NCBI RefSeq assembly: GCF_000531125.1
Contig: NZ_CBTK010000304.1
Location: 1-48,184 of the forward strand
Length of the DNA stretch: 48,184 nucleotides
Source of the DNA: Candidatus Contendobacter odensis Run_B_J11
GTDB lineage: Bacteria > Pseudomonadota > Gammaproteobacteria > Competibacterales > Competibacteraceae
Reading direction: 5' to 3'
How positions within the stretch are numbered: position 1 is the first letter of the stretch; each line of letters opens with the position of its first letter. Of this stretch, positions 32,972-35,247 are shown piece after piece. Below the pieces are notes generated by a model. That model saw only the letters and a list, made by a program, of their open reading frames with translations. It did no database searches and was not told the DNA's origin. A program made the translations under genes and the position numbers.

Positions 32972-34693
32972 ATGCGCGTATCCCGTTTTCCGCTGTTCAC
33001 CGTCAAGGAAACCCCGGCCGATGCCGAGGTTATCAGTCATCAACTCATGCTGCGGGCCGGCTTGATCCGCAAGCTCGCGGCCGGTATCTACACCTGGCTG
33101 CCGCTGGGTCTGCGCGTATTGCGCAAGGTCGAAGCAGTGGTGCGGGAGGAGATGAACCGCGCCGGCGCGCTGGAATTGTTCATGCCCGCGGTACAGCCGG
33201 CCGAGTTGTGGCAGGAATCCGGTCGCTGGCAGCAGTACGGCCCGGAGCTGCTACGGATCAAGGACCGGCACCAGCGCGAGTTCTGCTTTGGTCCGACCCA
33301 CGAAGAAGTGATCACTGACTTATTCCGCCGCGAAATCAAGAGCTATAAACAACTGCCGATCACGCTTTATCAGATCCAGACCAAGTTCCGCGACGAAATC
33401 CGGCCGCGTTTCGGAGTGATGCGGGCGCGGGAATTCCTGATGAAGGATGCCTATTCATTCCACCTCGACCAGTCCTCGTTGCAGGAAGGCTACCAGGCGA
33501 TGTACGACGCCTATTCCTGCATTTTTACCCGGCTGGGGTTGCTGTTTCGGGCCGTGCTGGCCGATTCCGGCAGTATTGGCGGCAGCCGTTCCCAGGAATT
33601 TCATGTATTGGCCGATTCCGGTGAGGATGCTATCGCCTTTTCTACCGGCAGCGATTATGCCGCCAATGTCGAACTGGCCGAAGCGCTGGCGCCGATGGGC
33701 GAGCGTCCCGCGCCGGGTGAAGCCATGACCCGCGTATCGACGCCGGGGATCAAAACTATTGCCGAGTTATGCGCCTTCTTGCACATTCCTGCCGAGCGCA
33801 CGGTAAAGGCAGTGGTGGTCGAGGGCGTGGACGAGCAGCCGGTACTGTTGCTGGTGCGCGGCGATCACGAGGTGAACGCAATTAAAACCGAGAAGCTGCC
33901 GCAGGTGAAAACACCACTGGTTTTCGCCAGTCCCGACGCGATTCGCGCTGCCTTTGGGGCTAGTCCGGGTTCACTTGGTGCGGTTGGCTTCTCTGGCGTG
34001 ATCATTGCCGACCGCACCGTGGTGAAAATGGCCGACTTTGTCACGGGCGCCAATGCCGATGACTGGCATTTCACCGGCGTTAATTTCGGTCGGGATTGCC
34101 TGGAACCCGAGGTGGCCGATCTCCGCAGTGTGGTTGAGGGCGATCCCAGTCCGGATGGACACGGTACGCTGGCGATGGCCCGTGGCATTGAGGTCGGCCA
34201 TGTTTTCCAATTAGGCCAGAAGTACAGCGCTGCTTTGAATGCGGCGGTGCAGGGCGAAGACGGCCAACCGGAGATCGTGACTATGGGTTGCTACGGCATC
34301 GGCGTATCGCGGGTGGTAGCCGCCGCCATCGAACAGAACCACGACGAACGCGGCATCATTTGGCCGGCGGCAATGGCGCCGTTCCAAGTAGCGGTTCTAC
34401 CGATTGGTGCGGGTCGTTCCGCTGCGGTGCGCGAGGCTGCCGAAGCGCTGTATCAAAACCTGTTAGCCGTTGGCATCGATGCCTTGCTGGATGACCGGGA
34501 TGCCCGACCCGGCGTTATGTTTGCGGATATGGAGCTGATCGGTATTCCGCATCGGGTAGTGATCAGCGAGCGCAACCTCACCGCCGGCCAAGTGGAATAT
34601 CGTGGACGACGCGATGTGGATAACACCCTGGTGGCGCGTGCCGGTCTGCTGGATTGGCTACGGGAGCGGCTGGAGATGACGGGACGCGGTTAG
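32972..34693 (+). CDS. proS: Prolyl-tRNA synthetase (bacterial type with editing domain)
   Basis: Charges tRNA-Pro. The 573-residue class II synthetase starts with [20 protein letters not shown]. Motif 1 lies around [20 protein letters not shown], motif 2 is [26 protein letters not shown] (over two stretches), and motif 3 is in [14 protein letters not shown] YbaK-like editing insertion (about 225-385, including [11 protein letters not shown]) clears mischarged alanine. AAGG precedes the ATG. Its stop is followed by the gene-free region with DnaA boxes. Confidence 0.98.
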
Positions 34694-34716
34694 ATTCCTG
34701 GCTAGACATGGGTTAA

Positions 34717-34941
34717 GAGTTATCCACAGAACCTGTGGATAACTCTGTGGATAACTTTTGTGCAGCGTAGCTAACTGCGTATTACCCTTAACAGAATGAC
34801 AGTTTGATGAATTTTTGACCATTGGGTATTTATGATTATTTTCAGTAAGTTGTGTGTAAGGCTTGGAATCTTCGGAAGATTTTTGGGTAGATGGCGAGGA
34901 AAAAGCGCCCAGCGGGAGACGGTTCACAGGCCTGTGGATAA
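34717..34941. other. Cluster of four perfect DnaA boxes between convergent genes
   Basis: Four exact copies of the 9-bp DnaA box: TTATCCACA at 34720-34728, and its complement TGTGGATAA at 34734-34742, 34746-34754 and 34933-34941. The first two form a 13-bp perfect inverted repeat (34717-34729 and 34733-34745). A-T-rich sequence (34801-34860) separates them from the fourth box, which partly overlaps the palindrome CACAGGCCTGTG. The flanking genes proS and acyP converge, so no promoter is expected here. This would suit a replication origin, or a DnaA-titrating or regulatory site. The A-T-rich block has no obvious 13-mers. Confidence 0.72.
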
Positions 34942-34974
34942 ATCAAGCCTGATGCAAAATAAAACTGACTTCAC

Positions 34975-35247
34975 TCAGTCAATTTGGAAACCGTGAACAT
35001 CCTGATGAGGCAGCGTTTCACAGCGCACATCGCTCACCCGTGCAGGCTGTGGGCCTTGCCACAGCCAGTTGCGTAAGGCAACGACAGCGCTTTCCTCGCC
35101 GCACGCCAGTACTTCCACTCGCCGATCCGGTAGATTGCGAACGTAGCCGTTAACGCCCAAATTCAGGGCTTTTTCGGCGGTGGCGTAGCGGAAACCGACG
35201 CCCTGAACACGGCCAGTTACATAGCAACGCAGGCAAAGGGTTTTCAC
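34975..35247 (-). CDS. acyP: Acylphosphatase
   Basis: A 90-residue small enzyme that hydrolyses carboxyl-phosphate bonds such as those in acetyl or carbamoyl phosphate. The P-loop motif is GRVQGVGFR with the catalytic Arg20, and the second catalytic residue Asn38 is in GYVRNLPD. The length is normal for the family. The start is a GTG at 35247 with CAGGAGA eight bases upstream. It converges on proS through the DnaA-box gap; the TlpA-like gene lies 44 bases upstream on the same strand, so co-transcription is possible. Confidence 0.97.
   Translation of the reverse strand: MKTLCLRCYVTGRVQGVGFRYATAEKALNLGVNGYVRNLPDRRVEVLACGEESAVVALRNWLWQGPQPARVSDVRCETLPHQDVHGFQID

Follow-up and report, generated by a model that had tools for sequence, protein, structure and literature searches.

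The window analysed here, a stretch of 48,184 nucleotides of Competibacteraceae DNA, carries a group of perfect DnaA boxes in the gap between proS and acyP, and the question raised by this locus is what DnaA would do there. The original prediction offered three roles, a replication origin, a datA-like titration site and a DARS-like site, and chose none of them. The comparisons below favored the last, while the origin role was lost and the datA-like role found no support in the box geometry. Our reading of the sequence is that the gap very probably holds a DnaA-reactivating sequence (DARS) of about 235 bp, at roughly 34715-34950. The window belongs to an assembly (G000) of 4.6 Mb in 319 contigs, rated 99.5% complete. 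The closest relative of its ProS was found in a Candidatus Competibacteraceae bacterium MAG (84% identity over the best segment), followed by a Thiogranum MAG (71%) and a Candidatus Contendobacter MAG (74%). The features of the locus are as follows.

32972-34693, plus strand: proS, proline--tRNA ligase, left flank (NCBIfam NF006625, TIGR00409)
34615-34623, minus strand: fifth perfect DnaA box, an exact 9-mer TTATCCACA within the 3' end of proS
34720-34728, plus strand: DnaA box I (TTATCCACA), exact 9-mer, offset 0, matching box I of E. coli DARS1 and DARS2
34734-34742, minus strand: DnaA box II, inverted relative to box I, 5-bp gap, offset 14
34746-34754, minus strand: DnaA box III, in tandem with box II, 3-bp gap, offset 26
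34794-34821, no strand: conserved block GAATGACAGTTTGATGA...TTTTTGACCA of the 21-copy alignment, with a weak IHF-like match at +77 (2 mismatches)
34840-34852, plus strand: candidate IHF site TTTCAGTAAGTTG, at +120 of box I, one mismatch to WATCARNNNNTTR
34863-34885, no strand: conserved block TTGGAATCT...GAAGATTTTT of the 21-copy alignment, possible Fis region (weak)
34933-34941, minus strand: distal DnaA box (box IV), at +213 of box I, in a conserved block that exceeds the 9-mer
34975-35247, minus strand: acyP, acylphosphatase, right flank, convergent (NCBIfam NF011014)

All four intergenic boxes were confirmed at the positions and on the strands first given for them, and proS (+) and acyP (-) converge as claimed. 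The cluster is also beyond chance, since the window contains 5 perfect boxes, against a mean of 0.13 and a maximum of 1 in 100 shuffles of the window. The expectation originally used for this argument, about one 9-mer per 130,000 positions on each strand, is in fact that for both strands together, where it amounts to one per about 131,000 (4^9 = 262,144). Boxes I and II form a perfect inverted repeat as described, with arms of 14 bp instead of 13 bp (34716-34729 and 34733-34746, 3-bp loop), and the A-T-rich middle was borne out, with 70-75% A+T between +60 and +140 of box I. The fifth box, in proS, was missing in both relatives aligned there (n = 2). The whole assembly has 39 perfect boxes, with 12 at oriC, 5 in the window and at most 2 on any other contig. 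One place elsewhere in the assembly (L033, G000:C32, 480-740) has repeats like TGTGAGTTCTTATTCGTAA between two perfect DnaA boxes and resembles an iteron plasmid origin. Two perfect tandem boxes with a 3-bp gap lie at 121-141 of a 3.2-kb contig (L032, G000:C283) that also carries a transposase-like ORF, judged by eye.

The 12 boxes at oriC lie in the dnaA-dnaN gap of another contig (L031, C146:8260-8738), which is 68% A+T. Ten of them form two arrays in opposite orientation, and the gene order is the usual dnaA-dnaN-recF-gyrB. This cluster is a conventional oriC, and the window site is therefore excluded as the main origin; a denser box cluster elsewhere was an outcome that the original prediction had itself named as refuting this role. 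Clustered perfect boxes and an AT-rich middle would suit a chromosomal origin or a second origin at proS-acyP, but set against the dnaA-dnaN cluster of the same genome this reading has hardly any probability. The rightward operon pointing away from the site, which had been brought forward in favor of an origin, has no bearing on one here. In all 11 genomes checked, dnaA and the DARS-type core were on separate contigs. No GATC sites were present in the proS-acyP gap or the dnaA-dnaN gap of G000. A plasmid origin was likewise rejected, as a distant search of 34600-35000 against a plasmid collection gave no match.

In E. coli, DARS1 and DARS2 convert ADP-DnaA to ATP-DnaA. ADP-DnaA is placed head-to-head on boxes I and II, ADP leaves, box III stimulates the reaction, and DARS2 depends on IHF and Fis (PMC8682772, PMC10380432, PMC4245941). 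According to PMC10380432, the head-to-head pair of boxes I and II typifies DARSs and is indispensable for their function. In E. coli K-12 we located the DARS1 boxes at 813107(+), 813121(-), and 813133(-) in the bioD-uvrB gap, and the DARS2 boxes at 2969135(+), 2969149(-), and 2969161(-) in the rppH-mutH gap. PMC11317965 prints the double boxes (II and III) of both elements, and they agree with the E. coli core sequences used here. The three core boxes of the window have the same offsets and orientations (0+, 14-, and 26-) as both E. coli cores. When the pattern TTATNCACA-N5-TGTGNATAA-N3-TGTGNATAA was scored, the best fits had 0 mismatches in the window, 2 in DARS1, 3 in DARS2, 6 in the datA region, and 7 in the oriC gap of the same genome, and a place in L031 outside that gap had 6. 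Matches with up to 3 mismatches were absent from 40 mononucleotide shuffles of the window, scored at TT starts only.

The best reading of the window element is a putative DARS most like DARS2, with a new address and consensus boxes. Both are intergenic, and both have an IHF match in the same orientation at about +110 to +120 and a perfect box at about +211 to +213. In E. coli DARS2 the IHF-like matches were at +93(+) and +109(-), 3 bp apart, and a 3-bp spacing of IBS1 and IBS2 is given in PMC4245941. The predicted motif of the window lies at +120, starting 10-11 bp further out than the IBS2 match. The two elements differ further in that each core box of DARS2 has one mismatch to TTATNCACA whereas those of the window are all consensus, that the distal box of the window points the opposite way from its E. 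coli counterpart at +211, that the window has no clear Fis site, and that the address is proS-acyP instead of rppH-mutH. DARS1 shares the core geometry and a perfect box II, whereas its boxes I and III have one mismatch each, its address is bioD-uvrB, and its first 330 bp contain no IHF match with fewer than 2 mismatches. The E. coli DARS neighbors, uvrB or mutH, are thus replaced by proS and acyP.

E. coli datA is also a non-coding, DnaA-regulating locus with DnaA boxes and an IHF site (PMC10380432). If the window element were a DnaA-titration or datA-like site, its boxes would bind up DnaA or stimulate ATP hydrolysis together with IHF, and ATP-DnaA would be lowered after replication of the locus. 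The five perfect boxes inside about 330 bp and an IHF-type motif flanked by boxes III and IV are compatible with this, and another inactivation route would be useful in a genome where no Hda was found. However, an IHF motif between boxes is common to both kinds of element, and the core geometry is that of a DARS, not of datA, which adjoins tRNA-Gly genes and whose 6 mismatches are a misfit. For titration, the number and affinity of boxes suffice and a fixed 14/12 arrangement is unneeded, yet all 58 perfect inverted box pairs (summed from the table; 36 of 59 relatives) had a gap of exactly 5 bp when gaps of 0-15 were allowed. Plain titration leaves this fixed spacing unexplained, and we consider a titration or datA-like role unlikely. 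Perfect inverted pairs with a 5-bp gap were also seen at 26 loci (L195-L220) with mixed neighbors and no core of up to 3 mismatches, several of them inside longer palindromes. Two neighbor genes recurred in this set, one at up to 7 loci (an amino-acid permease in L211, the locus scanned) and another at 5 loci (Asp/Glu racemase family, again from L211), and the pair of L210 is near a Rep3 replication initiator.

Comparison of the proS-acyP gap among relatives, which had been proposed with the original prediction, showed that the boxes are conserved across much of the Competibacteraceae. The triple core was present in 23 of 39 family genomes (up to 3 mismatches to consensus boxes), while the reversed control gave 0 matches, and in 20 of the 23, the window counted, it is flanked by ProS and AcyP. 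In G003 the core adjoins AcyP only, with ProS on another contig, and in G014 and G020 it lies away from proS-acyP. The 20 proS-acyP copies and that of G003 were aligned. Box III and the distal box were perfect in all 21, with the latter at +211 to +214 inside a block conserved past the 9-mer, and boxes I and II had one change in one copy each (L193 and L192, respectively). The IHF-type motif WATCARNNNNTTR at +119/120 had at most 1 mismatch in 20 of the 21 copies and none in 9, and the stretch of +80 to +120 ahead of it averaged 69-77% A+T. Fis sites may fall within a block conserved at about +143 to +165, although matches to the Fis consensus were weak and had no position common to all 21 copies. 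These results, together with the E. coli core geometry, strongly support the DARS-like role among those first offered. The element, kept in place across much of this uncultured family, probably serves cell-cycle control instead of acting as a replication origin.

The inverted repeat could also be understood as an RNA hairpin or a bidirectional terminator for proS and acyP, with the likeness to DnaA boxes being secondary. Convergent flanks and perfect 14-bp arms would be in keeping with this, and none of 200 shuffles folds as well as the RNA of 34694-34800 (z -4.4). However, the stem has no T-run after it, on which ground a terminator was rejected, and it was unlisted by the terminator scan. 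In addition, boxes III and IV and the IHF-type motif are outside the hairpin yet equally conserved, and the core pattern recurs next to unrelated genes across the class. A hairpin or terminator is therefore a very improbable explanation.

A first scan covered 80 ProS loci. In 78 of them, the 300 bp that follow ProS showed no TTATNCACA box in the available sequence, which in L082 covers only 71 bases downstream; the nearest box beyond that distance was at +395 in L086. Boxes lay just downstream in the other two, L036 and L038, which were not counted as independent because they are probably the same genomes as G012 and G005.

ProS was sought in 19 family genomes, namely G003 and the 18 that lack a core at proS-acyP; 17 gave a match and 18 ProS loci were examined. 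Five of the 18 (L252 = G022, L256 = G034, L257 = G027, L258 = G017, and L261 = G031) kept AcyP and boxes II, III, and IV and had lost box I. These five copies may be decayed sites, given that the pair which they no longer have complete, boxes I and II, is reported as essential in E. coli (PMC10380432). A perfect inverted pair was present elsewhere in G017, G022, and G031, and none was found genome-wide in G027 and G034 (82% and 75% complete). L263 (G014) has a decayed core at proS with 4 mismatches, and L260 (G020) has AcyP beside proS and no box. Neither AcyP nor a box was found in the available sequence of L251, L253, L254, L255, L259, L262, L264, and L268, and in L265, L266, and L267 the contigs end inside proS.

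Outside the family the same geometry was widespread. Of 369 genomes in the class, 294 contained the core pattern with up to 3 mismatches, against a total of 2 control matches (G152 and G384), and a phylum sample gave 160 of 299 genomes. As a positive control, G665, G586, and G553 had exactly two matches each, reading like E. coli DARS1 and DARS2. Outside the class, most genomes of family f201 had the pattern, with up to 9 copies (G436), and no core match was found in families f200, f207, f210, f213, and f217 (58 rows, counted by eye). The address varied. Around 32 core loci (L221-L250, L185, and L194), of which 30 were matches listed out of a longer class set and not a random sample, there was no match to E. 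coli UvrB, BioD, RppH, MutH, PtsP, or YgdQ (about 1.5 kb on each side for 30 of them), nor to the ProS or AcyP of the window nearby.

Among the matches listed, 9 of the 30 class loci, from 7 families, share one neighbor gene (L223, L226, L228, L229, L245, L247, L248, L249, and L250). This was PriA in the three scanned with Pfam, and tblastn with two PriAs found it at all nine and also matched L144 and, further off, part of L227. At these nine loci the core is usually just upstream of priA. This adjacency suggests a possible link between the state of DnaA and replication restart; our literature search found no paper linking DARS and priA.

By analogy with E. coli DARS biochemistry, ADP-DnaA bound on boxes I and II of the window would make head-to-head contact through the AAA+ domains, with box III strengthening the DnaA assembly, and IHF would bend the AT-rich middle so that the distal part is folded back. 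ADP would then be released, and apo-DnaA would rebind ATP, raising ATP-DnaA ahead of the following round of initiation from the dnaA-dnaN oriC. An ihfA match in the genome scored 170.8 bits (cut-off 120.25), and a Fis homolog is present with 56% identity over residues 17-98. No Hda was found in the genome; DnaA itself was the best match to TIGR03420, at 111 bits against a cut-off of 194.8, and no other match exceeded 23 bits. RIDA may thus be absent in this lineage of the Competibacteraceae. That no Hda was found as a source of ADP-DnaA counts against the DARS reading. So do the five relatives without box I, the decayed core of G014, and the box-free proS-acyP of G020, as well as an IHF motif with one mismatch and 10-11 bp out of the E. 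coli register, the inverted distal box, the lack of a convincing Fis site, and the different address.

The primary paper on DARS is reportedly the 2009 study of Fujimitsu et al. The discovery of DARS1 and DARS2 and of an earlier DARS at the ColE1 origin is recounted in PMC5835720. DARS2 has been described as conserved in relatives of E. coli (PMC5742627, PMC4245941), and sequences like DARS1 and DARS2 as conserved in many proteobacteria (PMC10380432); the candidate element of the window would therefore belong to a known kind. A DnaA site upstream of proS was described earlier in E. coli and was undetected by ChIP-seq, according to PMC11317965. This coincidence is probably accidental, because the window element lies downstream of proS. 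In the literature searched, no DARS was described in the Competibacteraceae or at proS-acyP, and no paper on the DnaA box together with Competibacter was found.

Taken together, our results provide an exact, testable candidate DARS for the Competibacteraceae, and at the single proS-acyP locus intact copies can be compared with naturally box-I-less ones. A broader proposal, which we regard as rather doubtful, is that DARS-type elements are widespread in gammaproteobacterial cell-cycle control, with a fixed geometry and a changing address (proS-acyP here and often priA elsewhere). With no Hda found, the element of this lineage might then be the main IHF-gated switch of the DnaA nucleotide state, acting in the absence of RIDA, the system that E. 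coli DARS counterbalances. Since the core occurs in so many genomes of the class, the cycle between ATP-DnaA and ADP-DnaA could become comparable class-wide, beyond a few model species.
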